Shown one piece after another: positions 11,991 to 64,000 of a DNA stretch of 64,000 nt. The notes under the pieces are model-generated. The model saw only the letters and a list, made by a program, of their open reading frames with translations. It had not been told where the DNA came from and made no database searches. The translations under genes and the position numbers were made by a program. Every line of letters starts with the position of its first letter. The stretch's first letter is position 1. Where the stretch lies: positions 1-64,000 of the forward strand of contig NZ_SOFL01000034.1 in the NCBI RefSeq assembly GCF_004402695.1. Direction: 5' to 3'. The stretch is from Cryobacterium adonitolivorans (GTDB taxonomy: Bacteria > Actinomycetota > Actinomycetes > Actinomycetales > Microbacteriaceae).

Positions 11991-11994
11991 GTCA

Positions 11995-12390
11995 GTGCTT
12001 TCTCGAGATTTCGAACTAGACGAGGAAGCGTTGGGCGACGAAGATTTGCGGCGCCGGCGCCGTGCCGAGGGCCAGACCGCTCCCGACAGTCTCAGTTGGC
12101 TCCGAGGGCCAGCGACGGGCCTTATGTGGGTATCTGCAGAGATGGCGGTCGTACTGGAGCCCACCATCGATGTGTCAGCCAACATCATGAAGGAATTCGC
12201 CGTCGATCTAACGTTCGACGTGAACGTGGTCGCTGCCTACCAGGAGGTCATTTCCCACTCAGCTGCCGCGGCTCACATCGAGGCGCTTAACCGTGATCTG
12301 CTCATCAGGATCTGGCCGCGGTTGACCCTCCCTGATCCCGTCCGAGAGGTGTGGGAGATGAGCTTCCCTGAGCTGACGGCCGGCCTATGA
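11995..12390 (+). CDS. Unknown protein in the Fic-recombinase operon
   Basis: A 131-aa protein with a charged N-terminus (DEEALGDEDLRRRRRAEG) and a mostly helical remainder with EPTIDVSANIMKEFAVDLTFDV. No family recognised. The GTG at 11995 is preferred over the ATG at 11980 because GGGAGG lies 8 bases before it and the gene then follows the Fic stop by four bases. Its end overlaps the recombinase start (ATGA), so it is translated with its neighbours. It could be an effector or chaperone for the Fic unit. Confidence 0.55.
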   Translation: MLSRDFELDEEALGDEDLRRRRRAEGQTAPDSLSWLRGPATGLMWVSAEMAVVLEPTIDVSANIMKEFAVDLTFDVNVVAAYQEVISHSAAAAHIEALNRDLLIRIWPRLTLPDPVREVWEMSFPELTAGL

Positions 12391-12968: not shown

Positions 12969-13462
12969 CCGACGCAGCAGCCAGTAACGATGGCGGGTTC
13001 GACGCCATCGCGGGCGGGATGCTCGCGGATGAGTTTCGCGCGAGCGAGCAAGATCGCAAGTTCAACCAGATGCTTGATGACCATATCGACGGCGTCACTT
13101 ACGTCGAGGTCGACGGGGTGACCTATACCGATGACGGACGGCTCTACGAGCCGATGGAGGACACCCCGCGACCAGGTGCGGCGGAGGGGTATTTCGCTGA
13201 GGAACGCGCGCGAGCAATCTACGCGGGGGAGACGCCGCCGGCGACGATCGACGAGCTGCACGCAAAGTTGGTGCTGCCCGTGGTCGAGCCGGCCTCTGCC
13301 GCGCTGGCTCCCGAGCTGCAGCGCATCGTTGACTTGAACGCACGCAGCTACCCGACGAGCGCGACAGAGATTCGCGCGCCGGGGAAGCACGCCGCGCCGG
13401 CCGGGCCCCGGCATCGCGCCGAGAGCCCCGAGCAGGACCGGAGCCAGGACGTCGGCCGGTGA
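12965..13462 (+). CDS. 165-aa protein sharing the Fic C-terminal tail
   Basis: An acidic protein with a Thr/Tyr/Asp-rich middle (YVEVDGVTYTDDGRLYEPM) and a C-terminal tail starting near residue 114 (LAPELQRIVDLNARSYPTSA) that closely matches the tail of the Fic protein. The N-terminal part is not recognised. It overlaps the recombinase stop by four bases and ends two bases before a minus-strand gene. A reasonable reading is a second substrate of the same export or partner system as Fic. Confidence 0.6.
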   Translation: MTDAAASNDGGFDAIAGGMLADEFRASEQDRKFNQMLDDHIDGVTYVEVDGVTYTDDGRLYEPMEDTPRPGAAEGYFAEERARAIYAGETPPATIDELHAKLVLPVVEPASAALAPELQRIVDLNARSYPTSATEIRAPGKHAAPAGPRHRAESPEQDRSQDVGR

Positions 13463-14299: not shown

Positions 14300-14638
14300 T
14301 CACTCGCTAGGTGCGTCCGTCACGGCTGGCGCAGTGCGGCGCTTTCGCGCCTTAGGGGTCGAGGTGCCGGGTGCGCGGACGCCCGTGGCGCGCAATTCCT
14401 TCTCAGCCCAGCCAGCACTCAGGGCGGCCTTCCACGCCGCAGCGTGTGCGTTGCTGGACTCTTTCAGAGCCACCTCCGCATCCTTGATCGCCTGCTTGAG
14501 TCGAGCATCTGCCGCGTCGTTCTGCTTCGCCGCCTCAGCTATGGCCACAACCGCATTCACACGGGCCGACACATCGGCTTCAATCAAGGCGCGTGCACGC
14601 ACGGCCACTTCGTCGTTAGTCACATTTGCATTGCTCAT
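14300..14638 (-). CDS. Helical plasmid protein of unknown function
   Basis: A 112-aa, Ala-rich, strongly helical protein (VRARALIEADVSARVNAVVAI and onward) with a basic Pro/Lys/Arg-rich tail ending in RKRRTAPAVTDAPSE. It may form a coiled coil and could bind DNA through the tail. The ATG at 14636-14638 is chosen. It sits beside the candidate oriT and points away from mobC, so a role in mobilisation is possible but not shown. Confidence 0.5.
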   Translation of the reverse strand: MSNANVTNDEVAVRARALIEADVSARVNAVVAIAEAAKQNDAADARLKQAIKDAEVALKESSNAHAAAWKAALSAGWAEKELRATGVRAPGTSTPKARKRRTAPAVTDAPSE

Positions 14639-14676
14639 ACAGTCGACAGTAGCGGGGGAATAGCCTTCCCGGCTCG

Positions 14677-14845
14677 GCAAGTGCGAGCACTTGCCCTAGT
14701 TCACCCTCAGCCTCGCTTTCGCGCCGATGAGGTGAAACCTTTTTGGAGCAAGCTATAGAGTTACCGGTGGTAACTCGCTTTGATTCTGGACGCGGGGCGT
14801 CAGATTCGGCATACTTGTCGTATGGTCCCCCCGAAGTTCGGGGGT
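14677..14845. other. oriT: Candidate origin of transfer (oriT)
   Basis: The noncoding gap upstream of mobC contains three nested dyads: GGCAAGTGC-GA-GCACTTGCC (14677-14696, perfect), followed by CTAG; GAGTTACC-GGT-GGTAACTC (14758-14776, perfect); and CCCCCGAAGTTCGGGGG near 14829-14845. In MOBP and MOBQ plasmids oriT lies upstream of mobC and the relaxase and has an inverted repeat near nic, often with AAGTGCG. The first dyad contains AAGTGCG. The exact nic site cannot be read from sequence alone. Confidence 0.5.
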
Positions 14846-14877
14846 TCGCTGCGCTGGGCCAAGGGGAGTGGGTGAAC

Positions 14878-15270
14878 ATGAGTGACACGAATGAAGGTCG
14901 CCTGTTCGGCCGGAAGCGCCGTAAGAATGCGGACACCCCCAGGAAGAAGCACTACAGCGTCTACGTCTCCGACGCTGAGGACATTCAGCTGCAGACCCGT
15001 GCCGCTCTTCGAGATGTCACTGTGCCGCGGTTGTTGTTCGAGTCGGCCATGGATTCTCAGGTGCAGACGTCGACGGACCGCAAGCTGGCAATCGTCGAGT
15101 TGTTCGCCGTTCGTAAGCTGCTGGCCAGCGTCGCGAACAACGCCAACCAGCTCGCCAAGTTCGCGAACACCGAGAGCCAGTTCCCCATTGAGGCCGAGTC
15201 GATCATTGCGGAATACCGCGCGATCGTCCCTCGCCTTTCAGCCGCGATAGACACGTTGGCCGACTCATGA
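14878..15270 (+). CDS. mobC: MobC-like relaxosome protein
   Basis: A 130-aa protein upstream of and overlapping the relaxase gene by four bases (ATGA). The N-terminal half is basic (GRLFGRKRRKNADTPRKKHY), then a strand-helix region, then VRKLLASVANNANQLAKFAN, the MobC signature in which helices bind oriT DNA and help the relaxase open the strands. The ATG at 14878 has a GGGGAG ribosome site. Confidence 0.8.
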   Translation: MSDTNEGRLFGRKRRKNADTPRKKHYSVYVSDAEDIQLQTRAALRDVTVPRLLFESAMDSQVQTSTDRKLAIVELFAVRKLLASVANNANQLAKFANTESQFPIEAESIIAEYRAIVPRLSAAIDTLADS

Positions 15271-16925
15271 TGCCCAACATCACCCGCGGCGGCCAAATGG
15301 GTGGGCTCATGGTCTACCTGGCCGGCGCCGGCAAGTCGAACGAGCACGAAGAACAGCACCTCGTCGGCGGAAACTCGGCCGTCGTCACCATGCACGGGTA
15401 CGGAGTACTCGACCGCGATACGGCCCTGGCCATCGCAAAGGACCTGGACGAACCGCGGGTGAAACTCGGAGTGGAGGTCACGCGCCAGGCGCGCATCACT
15501 GATCCAGACACCGGTGAGTCGATCACGACGCGAGTCGCCGCCGACGTCTGGCATTGCTCGCTGTCGCTGCGCGCCGAAGAAGGGCAGCTCTCGGACGAGA
15601 AGTGGGGCGCCATCTCACAAGACTTCATGGATCGAATGGGCTTCACCGAAGCCAGCGGCAAGGCCGACTGCCGATGGGTTGCCGTGCGCCACGGCCTCTC
15701 GACGAACGGCAACGACCACGTGCACATCGCTGTCTCGCTAGTCCGCGAGGACGGCACCAAGGCACCGACGCACAACGACTTCAAGCGCGCTCAGGGCATC
15801 TGCCGTGACCTGGAACGCGACTACGGCCTAGAACAATTGGAGTCGCGGGAACGCGGCATCGGTGAACGCGGGATCAAGCCCGCCGAGCAGGCCCGGGCAC
15901 AGCGCACCGGCACTGAGGTTGAGGCCCACAAGCTGGAACGCATCGTGCGCTCAGCATCGGTAGCCTCCCTCGACGAGGGCGAGTTTGTACGCCGCATCCG
16001 CCGCGGGGGAGCCCTCGTGCGGCCCCGCTTCGCCGCTGGACGCGACGACGTTGTGGCCGGCTACTCCGTTGCATTGCGACCGGAGAAGGGCGCGCAGCCG
16101 GTTTGGTACGGCGGCGGCCGACTCGCCCGCGACCTGACTTTGCCGCGCATGCGCGAGGGATGGCCGGACAGCCCCCAGAGCGCACAGGGTGCAGTGGACG
16201 AGTGGAGGGCCACGAGCAAGAACCCGTGGCAGTACCGGCCGGTCGCTCCGGGCCGGGAAGAGACGACACCGGACCCGAAACTGTGGAAGCAGTACACCGA
16301 CGAAATCAAGCAGCTCCGCGTGCAGATGCGAGAGATTCCGTTCGAGGACCGCGCCGGTTGGGCGCACCTGGCCCGCGACACCGCCGGGGCATTCGCGGCG
16401 TGGTCACAGCGCGTCGAGGCTACTCCCGGACCGCTGGCCCAAACTGCACGGGACCTGTCCCGAACAGCGCAGATCCGCGCCCACGAATCCAAGCCGAAGG
16501 CCGCCGGCCGGGTGTCGGTCGCCGGGGCCACGATGATGCTGCTGCAGGCATCGACCCAGGGCCAGGGAACGATGGCCGAGGCGATCATGCTGCGCCAGCT
16601 CGCATCGACCGTCAAAGCGGTCATGGACATGCACACCGCCATCGGTGAAGCCCAGCGCGCATCGCAGCTCGACCGCACGTTGCGGGAACAATACTCGCAG
16701 GTACGCGACCGTCTGCCAGCCATCGTGCGCACCGAAACCGGACAGCCCGGCAGTGCTATGCCGACGCCGGCCCAAGACCTTGACCCGGAGCTAGCGAAGA
16801 TCGTCCAGGCCGCACAGCGCGGCCAGGTCGTCCCCGGAACGGGCACGCCCGTTCCGACTCCAATCGAGTCCCACAAGCCACAGACCACCGTCACGCCGAA
16901 CGAGCGCGACGGTCACGAGAGATAA
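15267..16925 (+). CDS. Conjugative relaxase (MobA/VirD2-type)
   Basis: A 552-aa relaxase that would nick oriT, stay bound to the 5' end through a tyrosine and pilot the strand to the recipient. The N-terminal 200 residues hold the nuclease fold; the metal-binding histidine motif is NGNDHVHIAVSLVREDG, with a His in VADVWHCSLSL earlier. The active-site Tyr is probably in the first 50 residues. The rest is a long helical region. Near residue 507 it carries LDPELAKIVQ, similar to the Fic tail. It is translationally coupled to mobC. Confidence 0.85.
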   Translation: MMPNITRGGQMGGLMVYLAGAGKSNEHEEQHLVGGNSAVVTMHGYGVLDRDTALAIAKDLDEPRVKLGVEVTRQARITDPDTGESITTRVAADVWHCSLSLRAEEGQLSDEKWGAISQDFMDRMGFTEASGKADCRWVAVRHGLSTNGNDHVHIAVSLVREDGTKAPTHNDFKRAQGICRDLERDYGLEQLESRERGIGERGIKPAEQARAQRTGTEVEAHKLERIVRSASVASLDEGEFVRRIRRGGALVRPRFAAGRDDVVAGYSVALRPEKGAQPVWYGGGRLARDLTLPRMREGWPDSPQSAQGAVDEWRATSKNPWQYRPVAPGREETTPDPKLWKQYTDEIKQLRVQMREIPFEDRAGWAHLARDTAGAFAAWSQRVEATPGPLAQTARDLSRTAQIRAHESKPKAAGRVSVAGATMMLLQASTQGQGTMAEAIMLRQLASTVKAVMDMHTAIGEAQRASQLDRTLREQYSQVRDRLPAIVRTETGQPGSAMPTPAQDLDPELAKIVQAAQRGQVVPGTGTPVPTPIESHKPQTTVTPNERDGHER

Positions 16926-16940
16926 CCAGGGGGCATCACA

Positions 16941-17789
16941 ATGGCCGAAGAATCAGACGGCATCGGCGACGCGTTCGACGGGCAGATGCGGGTTGCTCTG
17001 ACCGTGGCCACGCAGATGGCCGAGCGTTTCGCCCGGCTCCGTGAGGAGCTCGCCAGAAACGCCCAGGCGCGAACCGAGCAACAGACCAAGGAACTGCAGG
17101 TTCGGTTCGATGCGGAGCGGAACGCAGCACGAGCCAGCCTGGCCCCCGTGCAGCAGCAAGAGTGGTGGAACACCGCCGGGGTCGACGACATTGCCACGGC
17201 TTACGAGACTGCCGACGCATGGCGCACCGCGGATCCCGACATTGCGCGTACGTCCGATCGCATGCGCGAGGAACTGCGCGGCCGGTACGGCATCGACGTG
17301 AACAACCTAGACGCCGAACCCACCGCAGTGCGAGAGGCACTAACCCGTGCTCAGCAGAACCGCAGCGCTGCCGCGGAGAGTCGAGGCGAGAGCGGCAAGG
17401 ACTACGCCGAAGCGGCATCGCTGCTCACGGTAGCTGACCAGCTGGACCGCAAGGCCGAAGAACGCCACCGCGACCAGGAGCGCGCCGGGAACACCAACGA
17501 TGAGCCGGCGGAGGGGCTGTCGCGGGAGGAACTGACCGGCAAGTCAGACGTCACTCGCGACGACGCCGCGAACGCGTACGACAGCGCAGGGCGCCGCGAG
17601 TCGTTCGCGGCCGACATGGAAAAGTCGAGCGTCGACCCCCAGCTGCAGGAGGTTCGCCTCGTTGCCGATCGAGAAAACGGCACCCACGCCAGCGCGGCCG
17701 TGGCGACCAAGCCGGGCAAGCAGCCCAAGGCCCGCAACAACAACGAGGCTGCTGGTCTGCAGCGTGAGCGCGGCGGCCTCAGCCGCTAG
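16941..17789 (+). CDS. Coiled-coil protein of the mobilisation operon
   Basis: A 282-aa, very polar, mostly helical protein starting 15 bases after the relaxase. Residues 20-70 (RFARLREELARNAQARTEQQ and onward) look like a coiled coil; the rest is rich in Glu, Arg and Ala. Near the C-terminus VDPQLQEVRLVAD resembles the PELQRI motif of Fic, the 165-aa protein and the relaxase. No named family. A relaxosome accessory or co-transferred protein is plausible from context. Confidence 0.6.
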   Translation: MAEESDGIGDAFDGQMRVALTVATQMAERFARLREELARNAQARTEQQTKELQVRFDAERNAARASLAPVQQQEWWNTAGVDDIATAYETADAWRTADPDIARTSDRMREELRGRYGIDVNNLDAEPTAVREALTRAQQNRSAAAESRGESGKDYAEAASLLTVADQLDRKAEERHRDQERAGNTNDEPAEGLSREELTGKSDVTRDDAANAYDSAGRRESFAADMEKSSVDPQLQEVRLVADRENGTHASAAVATKPGKQPKARNNNEAAGLQRERGGLSR

Positions 17790-18039
17790 CGGGTTCCTGG
17801 ACCGGCAAACCAGCTCAGACTCTGAGTCCCGTGTCAATGTGCAGTACACCCCCACTCGGGCGTCAGACTGCGGCACCTGCCATGGTCAAGACTGGGTCAA
17901 AAATCTTGGTTGGTTGGCAACACTGAACTCCGGGTCCTTAAGTTCAACATGACAAAACGGGCAGGAGGTCACCCTCAATCGGCGCAGAGGTAGTTTGCCA
18001 CTGTTCGAACCCATAAGGCCTCGTCTGTGGTGGAGAAAA

Positions 18040-28994: not shown

Positions 28995-29915
28995 CTATGT
29001 GCAGGCGACCCACTCCTGTTGGGTGGGATCCCAGCACCCTTCTTCAACCTCGCCACTAAGAGCAGGACGCAGCATCCTATTGACCAGCTCAATTGCATCG
29101 TCCGGGTTGAGGAGATCGCTGAGGACGGCCACGTTCTTTGCTCCGTTGGGATACGGGTCAGTCATCGATCGGGGCACCGCGAGCGTCATGAATGCGGGCA
29201 AATGCCAGTGAGCCGATTCTGTGAAGACGCTGCTGCGGAGTTGACGGGCATCGATCCGCACTGTTAGGGCGAGGATGGCCAAGTCGATGAGATCTTTCGA
29301 TCGAGTCGAGGGAAGGCCCCCATAGGTCGACATCGTGGCGCAGGCCTTGTCCGCGATCTGGTCCTCAACAGCGATCGCTTGATAGGCATAGACGGTACCG
29401 AGGCGGGGCAGGTCGAGCCGGAACGCTGGGACGATCTTCTCCAGCGGCGCTGTCGGCGTGCGCTTGTGAATGGCCAGGTCGACCTTGATCGGGTTCCGGG
29501 TGCCTACACCTCGGATGGTGACGCTGTACGTGACCTCAGCAGCCTGCAGACCCGGCTGGTTGGGCCCGCCCGTATCGCGGTGATGAAGATATCGGAACTC
29601 GAGATGATCGCCTAGATCAATACTGGCGGACGCCGTGAGCTGGGCGATGGCCTCATCGATGCTCATCTCTGCTGTTTCGAGGTCGACGTCGGTTGTTCTC
29701 CGAGCTCCAGGCAGACGCGCGAGCATGCTCGTTCCGCCTTTCAGTGCGAACGGGCAATCGTCCACGGAGAAAACGCGGCAGAGAAAGCGGTCGAAGATGG
29801 CCAGATCCTGGAGGCTCTGGATCGAGGTCCCCAGTCCAGCGTGGTGCGCGGAGCGTGCCTTCTCTTTGAGAGCGGCGAGCATCGCCCGTCCGTCTGGGTA
29901 GGGGTCAGTTGCCAT
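28995..29915 (-). CDS. abiEii: AbiEii-type nucleotidyltransferase toxin
   Basis: A 306-aa nucleotidyltransferase. Motif I is FALKGGTSMLARL, with the catalytic DxD in RTTDVDLE, motif III KVDLAIHKR and motif IV IADKACATMST. AbiEii enzymes arrest growth by modifying tRNA or other RNA with nucleotides. The ATG at 29913-29915 overlaps the AbiEi stop by 11 bases, the normal arrangement, with the antitoxin first. The system would protect against phages and stabilise the plasmid. Confidence 0.85.
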   Translation of the reverse strand: MATDPYPDGRAMLAALKEKARSAHHAGLGTSIQSLQDLAIFDRFLCRVFSVDDCPFALKGGTSMLARLPGARRTTDVDLETAEMSIDEAIAQLTASASIDLGDHLEFRYLHHRDTGGPNQPGLQAAEVTYSVTIRGVGTRNPIKVDLAIHKRTPTAPLEKIVPAFRLDLPRLGTVYAYQAIAVEDQIADKACATMSTYGGLPSTRSKDLIDLAILALTVRIDARQLRSSVFTESAHWHLPAFMTLAVPRSMTDPYPNGAKNVAVLSDLLNPDDAIELVNRMLRPALSGEVEEGCWDPTQQEWVACT

Positions 29916-31017
29916 CGATCTGTTCCTCTGCACTGGACGGTGCCCCGTCAGCGTGTGCCTCTGAAACACCCGGACGCTTGGGTGCGCTGACGCCAGATGT
30001 GGGCACCGCGGGTATCGTGACTGTTGGGTTCACAGCCCCACGGAACGTCCTGGCGGGAACTGAGATTTTGGGCATTCTGATACCAGACATCTGGGCCGCG
30101 ATACCACTGGAAATCTGCTCCATCTGTTCGCGATGGTGTTCCAGAAATGGGGACAGAACGGCGTCCGCGATTTCGGAAGCGAGGCGGCTCTGCGCTTGGA
30201 TCATCGGTGCGATCATCTGTTCGAGCTGTTCACTGAACTGAGTGCTCCCCTGTAGCTTGAATTGAAGTCTCTCAGCGATGACCCTGAGCTGTTCCGCTAC
30301 TTCCCGCGTGATGACCTGCTCGAGGGCGGCACCGACAGCAGGGCGCTGAATGAGCGCACGAGCTGCGGCGACATCGTCAATGCCGGCACTCCGGCGTATT
30401 TGTTCGAGAAGCGCCGTGCCGTCCCGTCGAGGATGCCCGTACTTTGTCGCGTACGGCGCCAGGAGGAGACTCAGGTGATCCAGGTCGACGGCGCGCTCTC
30501 CTCGGGTTGCGTCGGCCAGAACATCCCCAACCAGGGAGAGATCCCCCACCTCATCGACAAGATCAGCGACGGTGCGCTCAATGCTCGTCACCGGAAGACC
30601 CGCGATAACGACGACGTCTCGCGGTTCCAGTTGGCGACGTGAGTATGCGATGTCTGGTCGTTGGGTCTGACGACGCTCGCTGGTGATCATCCGATACGGG
30701 GCTGGCTCGATATCGCCAGCCTCATGCACCGCGGCGGCGGCCGCACCGCCGATCACAACGCGCGGGTTCTCGAGCCGTTCCCAGGCCAGCAGTTCCGGAA
30801 CAGTCGACATCCAGGCGGCATGGAGATCATCCAGCGGCGCCACCGGAACGCCGCCGAGCCGGTACACGCCGTGAGCGAGACGCTCCAGACGTCCATCCCG
30901 CTCCCGATGCGAGAGATTGGCTCGACTAACTCCGCGAGCCCTCGCCTGCGCGGCCGTGAACAGGCCCCACTGGCCCGAGGCCAGTTTCTCCAGGATCGGC
31001 TCAACAATCACGCTCAT
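29905..31017 (-). CDS. abiEi: AbiEi-type antitoxin and autorepressor
   Basis: A 370-aa antitoxin. The N-terminal winged helix (FTAAQARARGVSRANLSHRE, RLERLAHGVYRLGG) binds DNA; then the AbiEi C-terminal domain (VVIGGAAAAAVHEAG and IAGLPVTSIERTVADLVDEV). A helical and proline-rich tail of about 120 residues is longer than in typical members. The ATG at 31015-31017 directly follows the promoter palindrome. AbiEi proteins bind paired repeats and repress their own operon. Confidence 0.85.
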   Translation of the reverse strand: MSVIVEPILEKLASGQWGLFTAAQARARGVSRANLSHRERDGRLERLAHGVYRLGGVPVAPLDDLHAAWMSTVPELLAWERLENPRVVIGGAAAAAVHEAGDIEPAPYRMITSERRQTQRPDIAYSRRQLEPRDVVVIAGLPVTSIERTVADLVDEVGDLSLVGDVLADATRGERAVDLDHLSLLLAPYATKYGHPRRDGTALLEQIRRSAGIDDVAAARALIQRPAVGAALEQVITREVAEQLRVIAERLQFKLQGSTQFSEQLEQMIAPMIQAQSRLASEIADAVLSPFLEHHREQMEQISSGIAAQMSGIRMPKISVPARTFRGAVNPTVTIPAVPTSGVSAPKRPGVSEAHADGAPSSAEEQIDGN

Positions 31018-31022
31018 ACTTG

Positions 31023-31047
31023 AAAAGTATACATTATCTACACTTTC
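31023..31047 (-). promoter_or_regulatory. AbiE promoter with an inverted-repeat operator
   Basis: AAAAGTATA and TACACTTTC form a near-perfect inverted repeat around a 7-base centre just before abiEi; on the minus strand it also contains TATACT (a -10) and TTGAAA close by. AbiEi family members repress at such repeats. Positions beyond it (31048-31151) hold no gene. Confidence 0.5.
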
Positions 31048-31151
31048 AAAGCGCGTCGGGTGTCTGGGCGGTCGCCGAGAGCTTTGCGTGGTAGCCGGAA
31101 CCATTGGATATGGCCCACGCATCTCGATCGTGATCACAAAGAGTATTTTGT

Positions 31152-31577
31152 TCAGACTCGTACGTCGGGGAACATACCAGCCGGCGGCGGCGCGTAGGGC
31201 AACGGCTCCCCCGGTTTGTTCTGATCTTCTGAGTCTGCGAAGGGCCCGTCAGCGCTCATCAGAATTGGCATGTGGTGGTCCAGGTGGTCGCGCCACCAGG
31301 TGCTCGATCCGGTGGCCCCGTCGAGCCGCAAATGTTCCCAAGAACGCCACAGCGCCTCGAGGCGGGCGATGGCTTCGGGTGACCTCCACCATTCCGCTGC
31401 CCAGCGCCTTGAGGCACGGTTTGACGGGCCCACCACCCGCCGGTAGGTCTGGCTCAGCTGTTCGCGCACGAACTCGTCGACGGACCCGAAGACCAGGGTG
31501 GGCGCCGGGGTTTCTTCCGCCGGCTGGTGGGGGACAACATCGAGGTCATCGTCCAGGTCTTCGTATCCGCCGCTCAT
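31152..31577 (-). CDS. DUF4913-family conjugation accessory protein
   Basis: A 141-aa protein with VFGSVDEFVREQLSQTYRRV, then the tryptophan-rich WAAEWWRSPEAIARLEALWR and WWRDHLDHHMPILM, the DUF4913 signature found in actinobacterial plasmids next to coupling-protein genes. The HLDHH cluster may bind metal. The exact role is unknown. It overlaps the VirD4-like gene by four bases and ends the T4SS operon. Confidence 0.75.
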   Translation of the reverse strand: MSGGYEDLDDDLDVVPHQPAEETPAPTLVFGSVDEFVREQLSQTYRRVVGPSNRASRRWAAEWWRSPEAIARLEALWRSWEHLRLDGATGSSTWWRDHLDHHMPILMSADGPFADSEDQNKPGEPLPYAPPPAGMFPDVRV

Positions 31578-33376
31578 CCGGGGTACCCATATTTCTTATC
31601 GTCCGGCCACGGTTCTCTCAACGCCTCGTAGGCCGTCAGAGACGACGTGCTGCTTGGGTCGTGGGCGGCAATCGAGGCCCGTACAGCCTCGGCTTGCTTG
31701 CCTGCCATCCATGGCACGGTGGCCACCAGTGTGGCCGGGGCACCGGACGCGAAAACGACGGCGCGGCCGCGGGGCATCGCCGTGAGCTCGGACACCTCTA
31801 AGGTGTGCTCCCGGCGCTGGGCCAGCGACGTCGAGCGCTGCCCCTTGCCTATCGACACGGACGACGTTCGCAAGGTGAAATCACCGATCAGCTGCGACAG
31901 CTCACCGAGGAATTCCGTCTCAGCGACACCGCCGCCATAGACCTTTATGTTTGAAGCCGACCACAGCTTGCGCATTCCCTCGCGGCCCCAGACTTCGACG
32001 CCTTGTGACCAGGACTGCAGGATCGTCATGAGTACGATGCCGCGTGAGCCGTAGTGCGAGTACAGGTCCGGCAAGTTGCGCCAGCGGCAGACGTTTGCGG
32101 CCTCATCGAGAACACCGAGCATCGGAACAGCTAGGCGACCGCCTGGCTGGGTCGTGGCCAGCTCCTCAGCGGCCTCAACCGTGATTGCGGTCAACGCTGT
32201 CACGAGCGGGCCGGCACTGCCCTGGCCCTCCTTGGAGAGGCTGTAGAGAGTGTCTTGGCTGCGCACGAACGCGTCGGGGTCGAACTGCGGCCGCCGATCC
32301 GACTGAGCATTGCCACCGAGCGGCGTCACCCAGCGGGCAATGCCGCTGATCTTCAAGCAGTCGACCATTTGCGCGGCGGTGCCGTACACGCTGTCGCGTC
32401 GTTTCGGCTCGCCGTTCACTTCGCCGGCAACAGCGTCGGCCATGCCGTCATATCCGTTGTCTTCCAGGATCCGCACCGGTTCCTGGTCGCCCGGCTTGGT
32501 CGTCCAGGTGAACACCTGAGTAATTGGCTTCTGGCCAAGGGCCGCAGCCAGGAGAAAACCCGCGAGAAGGTTCTCGCCGGCCCGGTTGAAGTACGACGAG
32601 TTTTCGCTACCGCCGCCGCTCATCGTTGACGACGAAAAATGTGCGGCCATCTTCGCGGCACGCACATCGTCGGTCACATACGAGAGTGGGTTCCACCACC
32701 AACGGGGCTCTTCCCGGGCAATGCCTTGCGGATCGAATGCCCACACCTTCGATCCATTGGCCGATCGCACATCACGAGTCGCGTCGAGGACGTCGCGCTT
32801 GTTCGACGTAGTGAGGACCGCACCAGGTGCGCTCAGGATCGCCGGGATCGCTCGACTGGTGGACTTACCCGTACGAGGCCCCCAGATATCTACGTGCATG
32901 TCCTCAGGCGAGCCATAGAGCCACTGACGCCCAGCCACAGTAACTCCGATAGGAACACCCAACCAGTCCGTCACCCCGAGCCGCTGCGCCGTGGCGCGTG
33001 CCCCCTTCGTTGTGAGCGCCGCCAGGTCTTTTCCTCGACCCATGTAGCGAGCGGCACTGTCGACTCGGCTGCGCTTGGAGCGACCTCCGTTGATCAGGAT
33101 GGTGAAGCCGATCACCAGGGCCAGCACGATCACACCTGCGCCGGCAACAATCCATGTCGCGGACAGGGGCCACGCGTACGTCCCTTTGAGCGTGCCGAAG
33201 ACAATCTCGAAAGGATCGCTCGGAAGATCCGGGTTCACCCCGGCGATCTTCGACCCGAGCACCATCCCGCCCCACATGCCGCCGATCAGCACGACGGCAA
33301 TCCCGATGAAGACCCAGATGACCACGCCGTCGCTGCCTCCGGCGTTCTGCTTGCGACGATCCGTGGCCTGGCTCAC
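31574..33376 (-). CDS. VirD4/TraG-type type IV coupling protein
   Basis: A 600-aa ATPase that would recruit the relaxosome to the secretion channel. Two N-terminal transmembrane segments (VVIWVFIGIAVVLIGGMWGG and TWIVAGAGVIVLALVIGFTI) precede the ATPase core with Walker A WGPRTGKST near residue 165, Walker B MLGVLDEAAN and an arginine finger region around TILQSWSQG. The C-terminus lacks a long acidic tail. A GTG at 33374-33376 overlaps the VirB4-like stop (GTGA). Confidence 0.9.
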   Translation of the reverse strand: MSQATDRRKQNAGGSDGVVIWVFIGIAVVLIGGMWGGMVLGSKIAGVNPDLPSDPFEIVFGTLKGTYAWPLSATWIVAGAGVIVLALVIGFTILINGGRSKRSRVDSAARYMGRGKDLAALTTKGARATAQRLGVTDWLGVPIGVTVAGRQWLYGSPEDMHVDIWGPRTGKSTSRAIPAILSAPGAVLTTSNKRDVLDATRDVRSANGSKVWAFDPQGIAREEPRWWWNPLSYVTDDVRAAKMAAHFSSSTMSGGGSENSSYFNRAGENLLAGFLLAAALGQKPITQVFTWTTKPGDQEPVRILEDNGYDGMADAVAGEVNGEPKRRDSVYGTAAQMVDCLKISGIARWVTPLGGNAQSDRRPQFDPDAFVRSQDTLYSLSKEGQGSAGPLVTALTAITVEAAEELATTQPGGRLAVPMLGVLDEAANVCRWRNLPDLYSHYGSRGIVLMTILQSWSQGVEVWGREGMRKLWSASNIKVYGGGVAETEFLGELSQLIGDFTLRTSSVSIGKGQRSTSLAQRREHTLEVSELTAMPRGRAVVFASGAPATLVATVPWMAGKQAEAVRASIAAHDPSSTSSLTAYEALREPWPDDKKYGYPG

Positions 33377-35097
33377 ACCGTCACCTCGCGATCGACAACG
33401 CCTGTCCGAGACACGTCGTGCCACAGCTGGTTGGTGTCGTTGGAGTGTAGCTCTGCCTGCGTCAGCTCCACATTCAGAGGGATGCCGGGACGGCCACCGA
33501 CCTTAATCAGGAACTTGCCGCGCCCGGGCGGGTCGGCTTCCTTCCCGCTCACCGGATCCCACGCGGGCGGGTCCTGCCAGCCCTGCAGCATGCTCTGCTC
33601 GGCCGCGCTCATGGTGATCGCGCTGTTGAGCAACGGCATTTCGGAGGCCGGGAGGCCGCCGCAAATGACCATGCCGGACCTCTCGACGAAGCCTTTGGCT
33701 TTCATCCGGTCTTCTTCATTGCTGAGCGACATGAGGTCGCTCATGGTGTGGGAAATCATGGCCATGCCCACGCCCCGCGCCCGGTTCAGACGCGTCAGAG
33801 CGTCCACCCGGTCGACCATGCCACGGCCGGCGCGCAGCGCCCGCCACAGCTCGTCGAGGATGACGAAGTAGTGTCGGCGCGGTTCTAGCTCGGCGTCGGC
33901 CAGGGCCGTCGCTACGTTGACCGTGCCGAAGCCCGCCGACCAGCACGCAAGTAGCACTGCGGCCTGCAGGTCCATTTCGGAGTCGTCGATGCTCGACACG
34001 TCATAGACCACGGGGCGGTCACGTTTCATTCGGACTGTGGTCTGCTGGGAGAACAATTCGCCCAAGCGACCGCCGGAGACCAGGCCTATGAGGGACGCTT
34101 CCAGGTTCTCCGTAATTTCCTGATAGCGGCCCATGTCGCCACGGTCCAGGGCTACGGAACGTAGTTCAACAGGTGCCTTCCGGATCAGTTCGAGAAGATC
34201 GCTGAGGACCGGAATCCCGTCGTGATGGGCGTCCAGGTATTTGAGAGCCGCGTCGATAATCGTCTCTTCACGGTCAGTCGGCGGCTCTCGGCGCATGATC
34301 GTCAGCAGAGCGGACACCATCGTGAGGCGACGCCCGTGGGCGTCCTGCAGAACCTGTGTCGCAAGGCGCTCATTGCGCGTGATGTTCTCGGCGTGGATGG
34401 GCATCGAACCGACGAGCTGCGCGGAGCGCTCGCGAATGACCTGTGCCGCATTCTTGTCGTCGGGTACATCCACAGCGCGGAGCTGGGCTAGCTCGGCTTC
34501 CTCTTCTTCGATCGCTTTGCGTTCGCGGGTGGCGGCATCGCGGAGCAGCTGCGCGGCCTCGCCGGCTTCGCCGGGATCCAGAATGTTCAGATACCCGCGG
34601 CCGCGGCCGAGGGTAATGACCTGCCCTTTCATCTCTTTGACGAGATCCACGTAGTCGGGCTTCAAATCCCCGAGAATGAGGGGCTGCACGCCATAGCCGG
34701 CCAGCCCCGTCGCCATCCGGCGGATCAGCGTGGACTTGCCTAGGCCAGGCTTGCCGAGCACGAACGCGGAAGGGTTTGAAATCAGGTTGGCGCGCTGGAA
34801 CCAGGAAATTGGATCACAGCAGACGGTGCCGCGATTGATCAGGTGCCGCCCGAGCGGCACACCGATCATCGGAGCACCCGTGCCAACGCCGAACGGCCAA
34901 AGGCCGCAGACCTGAACGGTGGTTCCGCGCCACTCAGGGGCGGGAGAAATCACCATCGTTTCGCCGCCTCCGCGTCCCGGCCACCCGCGAGCGGGCGGGC
35001 GGCGCGTCACAGGCTTGGCAGCCGCGGTCGCCGCGGCCTTTGCAGCCGCGCGGCCTGCTCCGCTGAGGGGCGACGCGGGCTTTTTTAACCAACTCAT
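33373..35097 (-). CDS. VirB4/TraC-like T4SS ATPase
   Basis: A 574-aa ATPase energising the conjugation channel. After a basic, Ala-rich start it has FVLGKPGLGKST (Walker A, about residues 113-123), RHYFVILDELWRALR (Walker B) and a conserved helicase-like end (GMAMISHTMSDLMSLSNEED). Its N-terminal domain is shorter than in classical VirB4, as usual in Actinobacteria, where the SCO6880-like protein next door substitutes for part of it. Start and stop overlap both neighbours. Confidence 0.85.
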   Translation of the reverse strand: MSWLKKPASPLSGAGRAAAKAAATAAAKPVTRRPPARGWPGRGGGETMVISPAPEWRGTTVQVCGLWPFGVGTGAPMIGVPLGRHLINRGTVCCDPISWFQRANLISNPSAFVLGKPGLGKSTLIRRMATGLAGYGVQPLILGDLKPDYVDLVKEMKGQVITLGRGRGYLNILDPGEAGEAAQLLRDAATRERKAIEEEEAELAQLRAVDVPDDKNAAQVIRERSAQLVGSMPIHAENITRNERLATQVLQDAHGRRLTMVSALLTIMRREPPTDREETIIDAALKYLDAHHDGIPVLSDLLELIRKAPVELRSVALDRGDMGRYQEITENLEASLIGLVSGGRLGELFSQQTTVRMKRDRPVVYDVSSIDDSEMDLQAAVLLACWSAGFGTVNVATALADAELEPRRHYFVILDELWRALRAGRGMVDRVDALTRLNRARGVGMAMISHTMSDLMSLSNEEDRMKAKGFVERSGMVICGGLPASEMPLLNSAITMSAAEQSMLQGWQDPPAWDPVSGKEADPPGRGKFLIKVGGRPGIPLNVELTQAELHSNDTNQLWHDVSRTGVVDREVTV

Positions 35098-46566: not shown

Positions 46567-46702
46567 CTGTCTGGCCGTTTCACCGTAGTTCGCTCCGCGC
46601 CTGCGTTCCGGGCTTTCGCGGCATATCCTCGCTGCGCTTGCGGTATTCCACGTCCCTGCTCTTCGGCACTCCCGCTCTCAATCGATTTCTCTTGCCAGAC
46701 AG
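46567..46702 (+). ncRNA. Repeated structured element, copy 1 (before parB-like gene)
   Basis: Copy 1 of a family of four. Arms CTGTCTGGC (46567-46575) and GCCAGACAG (46694-46702) pair perfectly. Inside, CACCGTAGTTCGC follows the first arm and TCAATCGATTTCTCTT precedes the second, as in the other copies; inner CCGTAG pairs only partly with CTTCGG. A CCGCTGCGCGG hairpin lies 30 bases before. The ParB-like ATG is 33 bases downstream behind GGAGAGAG. It is probably a leader RNA or a single-stranded promoter; function is unknown. Confidence 0.7.
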
Positions 46703-46734
46703 GCAAAAAAATCAGTTGATGGAGAGAGAACCCA

Positions 46735-54399: not shown

Positions 54400-54546
54400 G
54401 CCTGTCTAGCCGTTCACCGTAGTTCGCTGCGTGCCTCTCGTTCCAGGCTTTCGCGGCATATCCTCACTCGCTGTGCTCGCTCCGGTATTCCACGACCCTG
54501 CACTACGGCACTCCCGCTCTCAATCGATTCCCTTTGCCAGACAGGC
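54400..54546 (+). ncRNA. Repeated structured element, copy 4 (before NrdH-SSB)
   Basis: GCCTGTCTAGC (54400-54410) pairs with GCCAGACAGGC (54536-54546) with one mismatch. Inner CCGTAGT (54417-54423) pairs perfectly with ACTACGG (54502-54508). The GCTCTCAATCGATTCCCTTTGCC block is shared. The CCGCTGCGCGG hairpin lies 35 bases before. The NrdH ATG is 33 bases downstream behind GGGGAAGGGA. Confidence 0.75.
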
Positions 54547-54579
54547 ACAAAGAATTGTTGGTGGGGAAGGGACAGGGAC

Positions 54580-58202: not shown

Positions 58203-59129
58203 CTAAACCCAGAGATCGTCCTTCTCGAAGTCATTCGGTGCGTCCATCTCAATGATCCAGTCGTCATCGCCGCTCATGATGTGAGCTTTCAAGCGAGCAG
58301 GGAGGCCTGAATCCGGTTGGATCTTTTTGACGAGATAGGCAGAGTAAACAAGTGCTCTGTAGATCTTTGAATCGTCCGATCCGACGAGAGCCGTGAGTAG
58401 CTGAGGGTCACCCTGCTTTGATAGCTTTATGCCCGTTCCAAAGGTCCTGTTCCAAAGTCTGTTGTGATGGGCGCACGCGTTTCGGATCACCGTCATCTGC
58501 CGCAAATAACTAGCCAGGACGTCCTGGTTCAGCCCGCTGTCGCTAGCAATGGCCTTTCGGAGGCTGTCTATCTTTAGGTTGTCAAACCACTTGGAGAGCA
58601 AGCCCAGACTCATGACTTCGGTTGCCATCCATACCGGTGGGTAGTCGTCGCTGTAGTTGCGAAAGAAGCTCTCAATGAAGACTTCGGTGGGGGGCGCAAG
58701 TCTCTCCCCAAGCTTCGCCTTGTCACGCTTAAGTGCTCCGGGGTTGGCGAAGTACCTGGGGTCGACGTACGCCATGGGGCCGAACTTGTTCGCAAGGTGA
58801 TTGGTGAACTGGCTACGAAACCAAACTTCGACAATCTGAACGCATTCGAGAAGTAATCCGCGCAGCTTCGCATCGAACTCATAGAGGCGGATCACGTCGT
58901 CGAGTGTCGTACCTTCTCTTAGGGCATGAGAGGCATCGGAAGTCTGAAACCACCAGAGGTAGCCAGAGAGGCGATAGTAGCTAGTGCGGCACAAAACTTG
59001 TTCGAGTGCGGCGGTGTCGCAAGTAAGTCCGCGCTCCATGATTCGGGCGCATTGCTGAGCGACGGTCAGAGTCTCCTTGTCGAAAGGAACTCGGGTCGCT
59101 ACCAGCGTCGACGGCACAACACTCGTCAA
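58203..59129 (-). CDS. Abi-family (AbiD/AbiF-like) abortive-infection protein
   Basis: A 308-aa Abi_2 protein. It starts VPFDKETLTVAQQCARIMER, then has SYYRLSGYLWWF, and near the end RNACAHHNRLWN, the Rx4-6H HEPN nuclease motif. AbiD/AbiF proteins stop growth after phage infection. I place the start at the TTG at 59127-59129, because GGGGGAG lies just 5 bases before it and the natural N-terminus fits; a longer frame to 59306 would run through the upstream RNA. A structured RNA precedes it. Confidence 0.8.
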   Translation of the reverse strand: MTSVVPSTLVATRVPFDKETLTVAQQCARIMERGLTCDTAALEQVLCRTSYYRLSGYLWWFQTSDASHALREGTTLDDVIRLYEFDAKLRGLLLECVQIVEVWFRSQFTNHLANKFGPMAYVDPRYFANPGALKRDKAKLGERLAPPTEVFIESFFRNYSDDYPPVWMATEVMSLGLLSKWFDNLKIDSLRKAIASDSGLNQDVLASYLRQMTVIRNACAHHNRLWNRTFGTGIKLSKQGDPQLLTALVGSDDSKIYRALVYSAYLVKKIQPDSGLPARLKAHIMSGDDDWIIEMDAPNDFEKDDLWV

Positions 59130-59143
59130 GAAAACTCCCCCAT

Positions 59144-59215
59144 GAGCAAAAAGAAACCCGCCTATTTGAGGTGCTTGGAAGCATAGCCTTGGCGGGTCTT
59201 GTTGTTGCCATAGTA
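59144..59215 (-). ncRNA. Structured RNA before the Abi gene (abiF-like)
   Basis: On the minus strand, AAGACCCGCC (59200-59191) pairs with GGCGGGTTTC (59162-59153), followed by TTTTTGCTC. A 28-base internal loop includes GCTATGCTTCC and AAGCACC, which itself has short pairing (GCTT/AAGC). A -10 like TACTAT lies before it. The abiF RNA motif, described upstream of Abi genes, is a hairpin in the same place; identity is my recall, not a search. It may be an RNA antitoxin or attenuator. Confidence 0.5.
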
Positions 59216-59365
59216 CCGCATAGTGGCCCATATGCGTTACATCGGTGCCACAGCGGGTGGCCACACCCGGTGGCCACAGTCGGTGGCACCAGCGGACTCC
59301 GAACACAGAGGCAACGCCGGAAACGATCGTTTGCTGGTGTCTGCCGGGTCCTTTGGAAAGGAGCG

Positions 59366-60932: not shown

Positions 60933-61208
60933 ATGACTCGATCACGAACTTTCCCTGGTATCGCTGCGATTGCGGCCGTGGTGCTCGCCTGCGCCGCGTG
61001 CTGCGCCGGCCCCCTTCTCGCGATCGTTGGCAGCATCGGGGCGGCATCCGCGATCGGCGCCCACTGGCTGCCCGGCCTCGCACTCGTCGCCGTGGCCGCA
61101 GGCGCCACAGTAGCCGTGCTCCTGGTGCGTCGACACCGCGTAAAGGCGTGCGTGCTGCCGACCGAACGCTCAACGGCGGGCCGGCCCCGCGACCTCAGCG
61201 TGCGCTGA
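60933..61208 (+). CDS. MerT/MerF-like small metal membrane protein
   Basis: A 91-aa protein with two transmembrane helices: FPGIAAIAAVVLACAACCAG (with the ACC pair), PLLAIVGSIGAASAIGAH, then LPGLALVAVAAGATVAVLLV, and a Cys-containing basic tail (VKACVLPT). The CC in a first helix with GPLLAIVG recalls MerT/MerF mercury importers. The identity is likely but not certain. Its end overlaps merR by 14 bases. Confidence 0.65.
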   Translation: MTRSRTFPGIAAIAAVVLACAACCAGPLLAIVGSIGAASAIGAHWLPGLALVAVAAGATVAVLLVRRHRVKACVLPTERSTAGRPRDLSVR

Positions 61209-61659
61209 GCCCAAAGAGCCGGGCACCCACCGGCGCGTCACCGATGCCGCCTGTGAGCACGACGCAGGCGCACGCATCTGTGCACGGCCCGGCCGGGGGT
61301 GCCTCGGACAGCCGAGCGGCCGCATCTTCCAGCTCGTGTGAAAGCCGGGTCAGGTCCTCGATCTGTGCCCGCGTCTCGGCCAGCCGTGCCGCGACCAACG
61401 GTTGCATCTCGCTCTGCACGTGAGCGCACACATCCGACTCGCGCGCCACCACAAGATCTTTGACCTCCGCGAGGCTCAGATCCAGTCGCTTCGCCCCGGC
61501 GACGAACAGCAGTCGCTCGACATCGGATTCGGTGTACATCCGGTATCCGTTCGCGGCCCGCTTGGCGGGGGAGAGCAGCCCCACACTTTCGTAGTAGCGG
61601 ATGGCGCTCGACGCCAAACCCGTGCGGCTAGCTACTTCGGAAATCCGCAGATCAGTCAT
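61195..61659 (-). CDS. MerR-family metal-responsive regulator
   Basis: A 154-aa MerR protein. The winged helix is MTDLRISEVASRTGLASSAI to RYYESVGLLSPAKRAANGYR. A dimer helix holds VARESDVCAHVQSEMQPLVA, and a C-terminal metal loop GPCTDACACVVL. Cysteines at 78, 126, 130 and 132 parallel the three ligands of MerR. It is convergent with the small membrane gene and would activate the two 19-bp-spacer promoters. The ATG at 61657-61659 is used. Confidence 0.85.
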   Translation of the reverse strand: MTDLRISEVASRTGLASSAIRYYESVGLLSPAKRAANGYRMYTESDVERLLFVAGAKRLDLSLAEVKDLVVARESDVCAHVQSEMQPLVAARLAETRAQIEDLTRLSHELEDAAARLSEAPPAGPCTDACACVVLTGGIGDAPVGARLFGLSAR

Positions 61660-61728
61660 GCACTAACCGTAAACGTTCTAGCCGCTTGAGGGCCTAGTGT
61701 TTCCGGTTCTAGCAAATATCCGGCTCCG

Positions 61729-61869
61729 TTAGCTGTCGTTGTGAGGTCGCAACGCGATCCATAATCCGCATCGTCGGCAGATGAAGCCAGCCCTTCCCAA
61801 CGCGTGCAATTGGTGACGCTGCAAAGTTCTCCCGCAGCAGGAGCAGACGTCGGTCGACTCAGTCTTCAC
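61729..61869 (-). CDS. 46-aa double-CxxC zinc-ribbon protein
   Basis: A short ORF from the GTG at 61867-61869 with VCSCCGRTLQRHQLHALGRA, then FICRRCGLWIAL. Two CxxC pairs with conserved spacing mark a small zinc ribbon. It overlaps the 103-aa gene by 11 bases in another frame, hinting at translational coupling. It lies in the gap before merR and is otherwise unremarkable. Confidence 0.55.
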   Translation of the reverse strand: MKTESTDVCSCCGRTLQRHQLHALGRAGFICRRCGLWIALRPHNDS

Positions 61870-62170
61870 GAGACGCGATTGCCTTCATGAGTTGCTCAGT
61901 TGTAGGGAGGCCCGCTAATCCTGAGGGGGTGAAGTAGATCCGGCAAGCAAGATCTGTTGTTCTGCCGTCTGTGGCAAACAGGTCTTCTCCGTTAAGGGTG
62001 AATGTGGGGGAGCCGGCAAACGGCACCTTGGCTGCGTCTTCAGACGTCCGCAGAAGCCGGTAAGCGACCGCTATGTCAGGGTTCCCGGTGTTATCAAGGG
62101 CAGCCTGTAGGCGGTGGCCAGCCTCGACCCAATTCGGGCACTCATCGATATGCAGTATTTCGATCCTCAT
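61859..62170 (-). CDS. Thioredoxin-like / mercury-associated small protein
   Basis: A 103-aa thioredoxin-fold-like protein: MRIEILHIDECPNWVEAGHR is the DxCPNW-type start, VPFAGSPTFTLNGEDLFATD is the cis-Pro region. Such proteins occur beside merA/merB or arsenic genes in Actinobacteria; one Cys is present instead of CxxC. The substrate is unknown. It is the last gene on the merR side of the first repeat site. Confidence 0.65.
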   Translation of the reverse strand: MRIEILHIDECPNWVEAGHRLQAALDNTGNPDIAVAYRLLRTSEDAAKVPFAGSPTFTLNGEDLFATDGRTTDLACRIYFTPSGLAGLPTTEQLMKAIASRED

Positions 62171-62324
62171 CTACCCATCATCCTCCCGACTCAGAAACGG
62201 GGTGGCCTGGTACAGAACTGTCGAAATCCTCCAATTGGCGCTGCGCTGCCAGAATTGATCGTTTGCGAGCACATCGGCGGCCCCGCCGCTGTGCGTGTGG
62301 ATTGCAGAGGTAAATGGGGGCTTG

Positions 62325-62365
62325 CATCCCATGGGTTATTGGTCGCTTTGGTTACGAGACACATC
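62325..62365 (-). repeat. Recombinase-site-like repeat, copy A
   Basis: CATCCCATGGGTTATTGG, then GGTTACGAGACACATC. The right half is exact; the left half has only GGGTTA. It stands 155 bases before the 103-aa gene. Part of the family with copies near 62.85, 63.77 and 0.1 kb. The surrounding 62171-62418 shows no gene. Confidence 0.5.
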
Positions 62366-62418
62366 AACTTTGCGAGCTCCATCGCTTGACCGCTCGCTAA
62401 ATGCGTGACGCGGGAGTC

Positions 62419-62805
62419 TTAGGAGTCCCTCGCGGCACGTGTTTCTGGATTCGTTCGAAGATGGAACGTCAATGATGCTCCGTATAGGGCGATGACGGTG
62501 CCTACGACCCAAACCGTGGTCGCGGGCCAATTGCTGTTCTGCACGGTTTGCGGGCCGATCGCGTTGTTAGGGCTGTCGTAGGTGCAATTCACGCCGAGGG
62601 GCATGAATGTCCGTTCGCCTGTAACTCGGGTGCCTTCGTTGAAGGGGCCGCCAGACTCGGGAAGGTGCCTCGAGCGCGTGCACTGGACGGCCGGAAGTTC
62701 CTTGCCGTCAAGAGTGATCCCGGCCAAGAATGCGCCTAGGGCGAGCAGGCCGAATACCGTGAGCATAAGAAGCCCTAAGAGCCGACGAAAGCGTGAACTC
62801 GTCAT
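62419..62805 (-). CDS. Membrane protein of unknown function
   Basis: A 128-aa protein with two transmembrane segments, LGLLMLTVFGLLALGAFLAG at the start and TTVWVVGTVIALYGASLTF near the end, and an extracytoplasmic loop with two cysteines (VQCTRSRHL, VNCTYDSP). No family. It is the only gene between repeat copies A and B. The ATG at 62803-62805 is used. Confidence 0.55.
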   Translation of the reverse strand: MTSSRFRRLLGLLMLTVFGLLALGAFLAGITLDGKELPAVQCTRSRHLPESGGPFNEGTRVTGERTFMPLGVNCTYDSPNNAIGPQTVQNSNWPATTVWVVGTVIALYGASLTFHLRTNPETRAARDS

Positions 62806-62852
62806 GCCGCAACCCTATTGGCCTCTATCGCCACAGCGTTGTTGTTGCCTCG

Positions 62853-62893
62853 ATACCCATGGGTTACGAGGCAGTTGGGTTGCGAGACACAAC
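62853..62893 (-). repeat. Recombinase-site-like repeat, copy B
   Basis: ATACCCATGGGTTACGAGGC, then AGTTGGGTTGCGAGACACAAC: two direct copies of GGxTxCGAGxCA with 4-5 bases between, only a few mismatches from copy C. It lies 48 bases before the membrane protein gene. Confidence 0.55.
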
Positions 62894-63021
62894 TCCGTGC
62901 TGGCTCGCGTCGACCAGTGTCGTTGTCCGTGCACGGCTGGGCGAGTCCTAATACTCGGCTACACAGTTCGCCGGGCCCGCTGTTGGCATCGAGACTCAGG
63001 AGAAGCGGCTGGCGCGTGGCT

Positions 63022-63651
63022 TTATGCGCGGCGCGCAGTGAGCGAATATGCCGCGAGCCCGAAGAGGACAGTTCCAGAAAAGCGCTCCATGGTCTTCATT
63101 TTAATGCCAGGTAGGAGACGTCGGACTCCGCTGCCGGTCAGGGCCCAGATCAGGTCCGGGAGCGATGCCATTGCGATGAAGATTAGTCCGAGGACGCTCA
63201 TCTGCACCCAGGCGGGGCCGGCGCCTTCCTTCACGAACGGTGGCAAGAACGAAAGGAAGAACACGGCTGTTTTGGGATTGAGCACCCCGACGAGTAGGCC
63301 GCGCTGGAAGGCCTTCGCGGGTTGGACCCTTGCACCGGTCGTCGCGAGGTCCGCGAGCAACGTGTTATTGCGAGAGCGCCATGCTTGGATGCCCAACCAG
63401 ATCAGGTAGCCCGCCCCCAAGACCTTGACAACGGTGAAAGCCGTCGCGCTGGCCGCGATGACCGCCGAGATGCCGATGACCGCGGCTAATACGTGCGCGA
63501 CGTATCCCAGCTCAACTCCCGCGACTCCACTCAGTCCCGCTCGACGCCCCGAGCTCAGGGTGGTGGTGAGGATGAACGCGACAGAAGGGCCAGGCGCCAG
63601 GACTAAGGGGAGGCAGGCTGCCATGAAAAGGAGAAAAGTGCTCGTCTGCAT
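63022..63651 (-). CDS. LysE/RhtB-family amino-acid exporter
   Basis: A 209-aa exporter. Start LLFMAACLPLVLAPGPSVAF, then HVLAAVIGISAVIAASATAF and GVLNPKTAVFFLSFLPPFV, the hallmark NPK(T/A)xxFFxxFxPxFV motif. It has six helices and would excrete a neutral or basic amino acid such as threonine. The ATG at 63649-63651 has GGAGAG upstream. It is the only gene between repeat copies B and C. Confidence 0.85.
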   Translation of the reverse strand: MQTSTFLLFMAACLPLVLAPGPSVAFILTTTLSSGRRAGLSGVAGVELGYVAHVLAAVIGISAVIAASATAFTVVKVLGAGYLIWLGIQAWRSRNNTLLADLATTGARVQPAKAFQRGLLVGVLNPKTAVFFLSFLPPFVKEGAGPAWVQMSVLGLIFIAMASLPDLIWALTGSGVRRLLPGIKMKTMERFSGTVLFGLAAYSLTARRA

Positions 63652-63767
63652 TAGGTGCTCTCCATCCGTCAGGTGGGGCGAGGCTATCAGCACAGTTGGT
63701 CGGCATTGTTTCGTGTCGTAGTCCCGAAGATGCAGTCGCCAAAGGACTGGTGCCAGCTGTCTCAGTA

Positions 63768-63806
63768 CGCATGGGATACGAGGCATTTAGGTTACGAGAC
63801 ACTTCA
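63768..63806 (-). repeat. Recombinase-site-like repeat, copy C
   Basis: CGCATGGGATACGAGGCATT, then TAGGTTACGAGACACTTC: the best copy, two direct 12-bp motifs. It stands 117 bases before the LysE-like gene. The stretch 63652-63925 shows no other gene. Confidence 0.55.
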
Positions 63807-63925
63807 TCGCGTCATGGCCGTACCCGGCGGAAGGATCGTTTGTGGCCCCCATGCGTTTCTGCCGAGACGGCGAGGTCTGCGAATACCTCGCCGCGATGCC
63901 GCCTCCGGACCCATACAATCCCTTC

Positions 63926-64000
63926 ATGGTGACATCACGGCGAGGGGACCAGTTCCGACCGGATTGGCGAACCGAATTTGCAATCCAGACAGGTCGACAA
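63926..64000 (+). CDS. Right-edge gene start, truncated
   Basis: From the ATG at 63926 the frame reads MVTSRRGDQFRPDWRTEFA and runs out of the window. TACAAT lies 7 bases before, so the message may be leaderless. Too short to identify. Confidence 0.35.
   Translation, partial: MVTSRRGDQFRPDWRTEFAIQTGRQ

Follow-up and report, generated by a model that had tools for sequence, protein, structure and literature searches.

The window analysed here, the 64,000 nucleotides of Cryobacterium adonitolivorans DNA that open the 74.9-kb contig C41 of a 3.67-Mb genome, very probably takes in the edge of an integron-like cassette array whose recombinases are small serine enzymes of the resolvase/invertase type. 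Several features that point to such an array can be read directly from the DNA: its recombination sites, their grouping into arrays with a common orientation, their linkage to recombinase genes, the exchange of cassettes between species and homology that changes over in the middle of the site core. The earlier note on this DNA, which had described repeated sites bracketing single genes and likened them to pdif modules, did not mention an integron-like layout, in which one end of the array is taken by a recombinase with a core of its own.

Each site in the window is a 28-bp palindrome in which the 12-bp half-sites TGTCTCGTANCC and GGNTACGAGACA flank CATG, and a third half-site in direct orientation extends it 16 bp beyond the palindrome. 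The three right-hand sites share the order inverted half-site, CATG, half-site, 4 bp and direct half-site. Site 1 (62318–62361, + strand) has its core at 62318–62345, with the CATG centre at 62330–62333, and its direct half-site at 62350–62361; its left half-site is degenerate, and homology to a cassette of another species (genome G004; see below) begins at ATCCCATG. Site 2 (62846–62889, + strand) consists of the core TGCCTCGATACC-CATG-GGTTACGAGGCA and the direct half-site GGTTGCGAGACA, and site 3 (63758–63801, + strand) of TGTCTCAGTACG-CATG-GGATACGAGGCA and GGTTACGAGACA. The E-values assigned to sites 1, 2 and 3 by a sequence-only site model (R1) were 1.5e-8, 8.1e-12 and 8.8e-12, respectively.

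Near the start of the window lies a longer, compound (two-core) site in the opposite orientation to the right-hand sites (84–194, − strand). It is made up of a CATG core at 84–111, the left arm of which is poor, a GTAG core at 167–194 and, between them, an additional half-site at 150–161. Its core centres are 83 bp apart, matching other compound sites, which are common: a TA-centred core precedes the CATG core, mostly by 83–86 bp (range 66–93), and was never on the other side of it (34 cases). The motif that the earlier note had reported at four places is present at all of them, with coordinates refined as given here, and its suggestion of resolvase-like subsites agrees with the geometry, which is that of a serine resolvase: a 28-bp crossover core of two 12-bp inverted half-sites (12-4-12), as used by small serine recombinases. 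The core centres seen were CATG or one of CTAG, CTAC and GTAG; AT or TA was the central dinucleotide in 97 of the 108 cores not selected on their centre, and the neighbouring bases varied. A centre of AT or TA with varying neighbours is what the 2-bp overlap of serine recombinases would lead one to expect, and the exact 2-bp cut is predicted to fall at the core centre.

Between these sites lie short segments with single genes on the minus strand, as the earlier note had described. Cassette 1 (62332–62859; 528 bp from CATG centre to CATG centre) carries a gene for a 128-aa, membrane-like protein without a Pfam match (62419–62805, − strand). Cassette 2 (62860–63771; 912 bp between site centres) carries a LysE-type exporter gene (63022–63651, − strand; PF01810, E = 1.9e-29), with a protein that probably starts MQTSTFLLF. 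The beginning of cassette 3 (63772–64000) crosses the window end and the cassette runs up to the site at C41:64410–64453. Past the window, sites continue towards the contig end as far as C41:68465, which the earlier note did not cover; beyond them come a CTAG core at 69637 and, at 69960–70556 (+ strand), the gene of a serine recombinase. The cassette genes of C41 include LysE, a sigma factor with its partner, and MFS and DUF families, and a 12.2-kb contig, C9, is filled by the same sites. Altogether, 155 inter-site segments had a median length of 1.07 kb, and 125 cassette proteins matched 64 Pfam families, most of them one time each, with GNAT acetyltransferases the commonest. Relative to site direction, the strand of the top ORF showed no clear preference and was about evenly spread (51/39/31/27), with some sites upstream of a gene, and some array repeats were IS-like copies.

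The lone 12-mer (at most two mismatches) was weakly enriched in the window, with 12 occurrences against 3.8 expected and 1 of 100 shuffles reaching 12, and we set it aside as weak evidence. The paired 44-bp sites are far beyond chance: a 44-bp site matrix had no match in 1.07 Mb of first-order Markov sequence, and 173 sites in the loci examined scored at least 40 with it. In a sample of one genome per species, a sequence-only model that under-detects sites whose centre is different (TT, TA in Arthrobacter) found sites in 52 of the 57 genomes of the genus, with a maximum of 73 in one. Arrays were found in 38 of 299 genomes, from 19 of the 85 sampled genera, at the level of the family, and only 4 of 394 genomes had sites at the level of the class; with this last scan almost empty outside the genus, arrays with this type of site are concentrated in Microbacteriaceae. 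One chromosomal array, in genome G007, measures about 56 kb.

Where a contig carries both an array and a recombinase, the head is in most cases of one kind: a serine recombinase about 200 aa long, whose gene lies at one end and reads outward, separated from the sites by a TA-centred core. On 15 recombinase-headed contigs, 90 of 91 sites were on the recombinase's upstream side and the third half-site pointed at the recombinase in 87 of 90, a count from which contig C32 of genome G071 was left out. There, 16 of the 18 sites face away from the sole recombinase found on the contig, and the array seems to be a headless one lying next to an unrelated head. We also noted on it (loci L049/L050) a CTAG core at 2348 without an adjacent recombinase; the recombinase there is a distant one, A1.

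A core was present at −130 to −185 in 65 of the 78 related recombinase genes with enough upstream sequence, which are about 66–88% identical and come from many Micrococcales genera (Cryobacterium, Arthrobacter, Pseudarthrobacter, Microbacterium, Brevibacterium, Kocuria and others). This attI-like core lies about 140–185 bp upstream of the gene in family A, and about 323 bp upstream in family B. Its centre is mostly TA, and TT in Arthrobacter, usually unlike the commonest cassette-site centre, AT. Many loci of the Arthrobacter type (L096, L097, L103, L108, L109, L124, L135, L137, L141 and others) have a non-palindromic TT centre (CTTG) in the core before the recombinase and TA in their distal three-part sites. 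At all eight A2 heads examined the next feature is tRNA-Arg(CCG), so that A2-headed arrays look like fixed chromosomal arrays. In the recombinase tree most array-bearing heads are of the Cryobacterium A2 type; relatives elsewhere, many of them plasmid-borne, have one or two sites, which suggests that the array system began as a plasmid-borne resolvase with its res site.

The array in the window is headed by family B, the gene at C41:69960 with its CTAG core 323 bp upstream; this family is about 35% identical to family A and is not the one at most heads. A relative with 80% identity is found on the plasmid of Cryobacterium sp. LW097, where its neighbours are an ATPase and a transposase of the Mu type, an arrangement like that of Tn402-like elements. 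At locus L030 of that plasmid (NZ_CP021994, 20001–24622), compound sites lie upstream of a family B recombinase gene, and the genes for the Mu-type transposase and an AAA ATPase follow downstream; the locus is possibly a Tn402-like carrier of the cassette system.

Family A proteins combine PF00239 with HTH_7, a resolvase domain followed by a C-terminal helix–turn–helix, and their catalytic serine is invariant in GYAR-S. By sequence, their closest solved relatives are the Gin invertase and then the Tn3/gamma-delta resolvases, and a structure model of middling confidence (pLDDT 72, pTM 0.48) folds closest to gamma-delta, Tn3 and Gin. Linkage and site geometry together point to the linked serine recombinases as the enzymes that act on the sites, and the candidates for this role lie outside the window, at C41:69960–70556, C41:74038–74682 and C9:784–1389. 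The serine recombinase within the window (12387–12968, + strand), which had been put forward in the earlier note, is probably the wrong enzyme: it has no matching core upstream and is placed well away from the family found at most array heads, and we dropped it. The ORF that follows it and a Fic-like ORF in the same region (11115–13462) share a C-terminal-like repeat motif (ELQRIVDxN..YPTSATxI). No IntI scored above the TIGR02249 cut-off in any of the 57 genomes of the genus.

Cassettes have been exchanged between species. Cassette 1 has an 86.6% identical copy in another species (G004, L035:9092–9628), with CATG at both ends and different neighbours. Nine whole-cassette pairs, homologous over at least 75% of their length, were found among the 155 segments; seven moved singly, having no flank homology (two of them with a flank cut by a contig end), the remaining two are neighbours that moved together, and one of the nine spans genera. 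The gaps between sites hold different genes in different genomes (the earlier note had proposed to compare strains), and the same cassette stands beside different neighbours; the comparison with pdif modules was right in kind, as the sites separate movable single-gene modules. A copy of C41:72366–73921 with 95% identity on contig C53 of genome G000 was not counted as a clean cassette, because its far end is not at a core.

The exchanges also locate the crossover. Loci L045 and L047 share 2.3 kb of homology at 94%, which leads up to a site that is empty in L047 and in L045 holds a cassette inserted precisely at CA|TG; the same cassette recurs in L058 at 97%. For TA cores, a segment of the G007 array occurs in two places, 99.5% identical, joined to attI-type DNA in one and to compound-site DNA in the other, with the switch at CTA, and another segment is found at attI in C9 and inside an array in G071. 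Over 35 AT junctions with unrelated outer DNA, which are partly non-independent (some cassettes and sites recur across pairs), the inner half-site matched at 0.90 against a background of 0.70, and the outer half-site at 0.676 against 0.682; homology thus changes over at the centre of the palindrome. Of 204 homology ends, 52 lay no more than 35 bp from a core in each of the two genomes, compared with 5.4% of array bases. A search for the gain of a single cassette with homology on both sides returned only cases in which one side was the site's own linker.

This sharp changeover bears on whether RecA-dependent homologous recombination, between repeats that have another role, could have shuffled the cassettes. 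In favour of this, the repeats are numerous and 44–128 bp long, and some are IS-like, but homologous recombination would blur the junction rather than leave the outer half-site at background and the inner one above it with the switch at the core centre; array sites are, in addition, often moderately alike over 44 bp and would be poor RecA substrates. We regard RecA shuffling as unlikely. A low probability also attaches to pdif-like modules moved by the host XerC/XerD, or to another tyrosine recombinase using the 28-bp site as 11-6-11. The core does have the length of dif, single-gene modules are known from Acinetobacter plasmids (PMC6449649 and others), and the pdif modules of those plasmids resemble the present ones in that exchangeable genes lie between 28-bp recombination sites on plasmids and may parasitise a dimer-resolution enzyme. 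Here, however, the two arms have one and the same half-site, where dif-type sites would have separate XerC and XerD arms and a 6-bp spacer, and third half-sites are present; the sites of an array run in the same direction (87 of 90) rather than alternating, and chromosomal arrays reach tens of cassettes. The linked, dedicated genes are moreover serine recombinases with a core at a fixed upstream distance, and AT or TA is constant while the bases flanking the centre vary, as for a 2-bp overlap.

Two further explanations appear very improbable. An operator array, in which a repressor binds repeats before separate genes, was the alternative offered in the earlier note, and palindromic 12-bp half-sites, some of them upstream of a gene, would suit it. 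We reject it because the sites mark crossover boundaries, are not fixed to the same genes and show no clear preference for ORF strand (51/39/31/27): the same cassette adjoins different genes, the sites are exact ends of homology, and the heads carry a recombinase, not a repressor. A multiple-inversion switch run by a serine invertase, of the type of the Min system of p15B or a shufflon, would agree with Gin being closest in sequence to family A among solved proteins and with palindromic centres, which permit inversion, but the sites are direct, not inverted (87 of 90), and the segments that species exchange are complete, unrelated genes rather than alternative C-termini. We hold it to have very little chance of being correct.

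We propose that the integron-like array of serine-recombinase cassettes would work as follows. Each cassette would comprise one or a few unrelated genes between sites made of 12-bp recombinase half-sites, and the direct third half-site beside the 12-4-12 core would give the site its direction. Recombinase dimers would bind two cores and cleave each in its central dinucleotide, an AT core recombining with another AT core and a TA core with another TA core, after which rotation and rejoining would excise the cassette as a circle or insert it; the circular intermediate, the matching of dinucleotides and the role of the third half-site are parts of the model that we infer. At the head, a recombinase transcribed away from the array would have its own attI-like core upstream, and AT-only cassettes, the heads being TA, may enter at existing AT sites. 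Insertion of a free circle is at odds with the normal preference of small resolvases for recombination within one molecule and needs explaining, as known resolvases are choosy for intramolecular reactions owing to accessory sites (PMC9943657). A small serine recombinase that also inserted cassettes would challenge this view of resolvase selectivity and could be a possible tool for DNA assembly.

The system is like integrons in its arrays of short single-gene cassettes with uniformly oriented sites, which include headless arrays; in having at one end a recombinase gene that reads outward and is set off from the array by a site of its own (G071:C32 departs from this); and in the occurrence of large chromosomal arrays together with small plasmid ones. 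Unlike in integrons, the head genes encode small PF00239 serine recombinases, not a tyrosine recombinase with the extra domain of IntI, and the sites are palindromic with a 2-bp centre. The site consensus is without the attC core GTTRRRY, and an Rfam scan of four loci, which would be informative on attC only if Rfam includes it, returned tRNAs only. The parts themselves resemble those of the res systems (Tn3, gamma-delta, Tn552/Sin and the TniR of Tn5053/Tn402), which share the PF00239 recombinase and the fold of its catalytic domain, the 28-bp core of 12-bp inverted half-sites, the extra half-sites and the position of the core upstream of the recombinase gene. To our knowledge, res sites resolve cointegrates or dimers and do not bound arrays of foreign single-gene cassettes.

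The system works like an integron and partly like pdif modules, yet fails defining features of both. No description of such a cassette system was found in open-access papers. The IntegronFinder 2.0 study reported Actinobacteria to be without complete integrons (PMC9024848). It is likely that we are dealing with a second, independently evolved kind of integron, made of serine-recombinase cassettes and common in Cryobacterium as well as present across Microbacteriaceae. It would have sedentary arrays in chromosomes, next to tRNA-Arg(CCG), and mobile versions on plasmids or transposons, would fill the role of the IntI integrons of Proteobacteria and would probably derive from a resolvase and res site of plasmid origin. 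If so, at least one large actinobacterial family would own a gene-capture platform run by an unrelated class of enzyme, a case of convergent evolution of the integron. The large stock of mobile single-gene cassettes in bacteria of glaciers and soils would then have an explanation, and the long-standing puzzle of the uneven spread of integrons would become testable.

C41 is probably a plasmid or conjugative element, as the relaxase region of the window (14523–17794) is 94% identical to the plasmid of Cryobacterium sp. LW097 (NZ_CP021994). A BLAST search of the array against plasmids gave partial matches only, the best to that same LW097 plasmid, and a scan of viral contigs gave no match. Elsewhere in the window, a TraG/VirD4-type coupling protein is encoded at 31574–33424, and a MerR-type regulator with a small thioredoxin-like protein, possibly a metal-response module, adjoins the array at 60933–62170. 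Judged by eye from their translations, an AbiEi/AbiEii-like pair (28995–31137) and an Abi_2-type-like protein (58203–59306) are candidates for phage defence or toxin–antitoxin function. Two repeats with 83% identity, at 46567–46725 and 54402–54567, lie upstream of a ParB-like gene and near a ParA-like gene.
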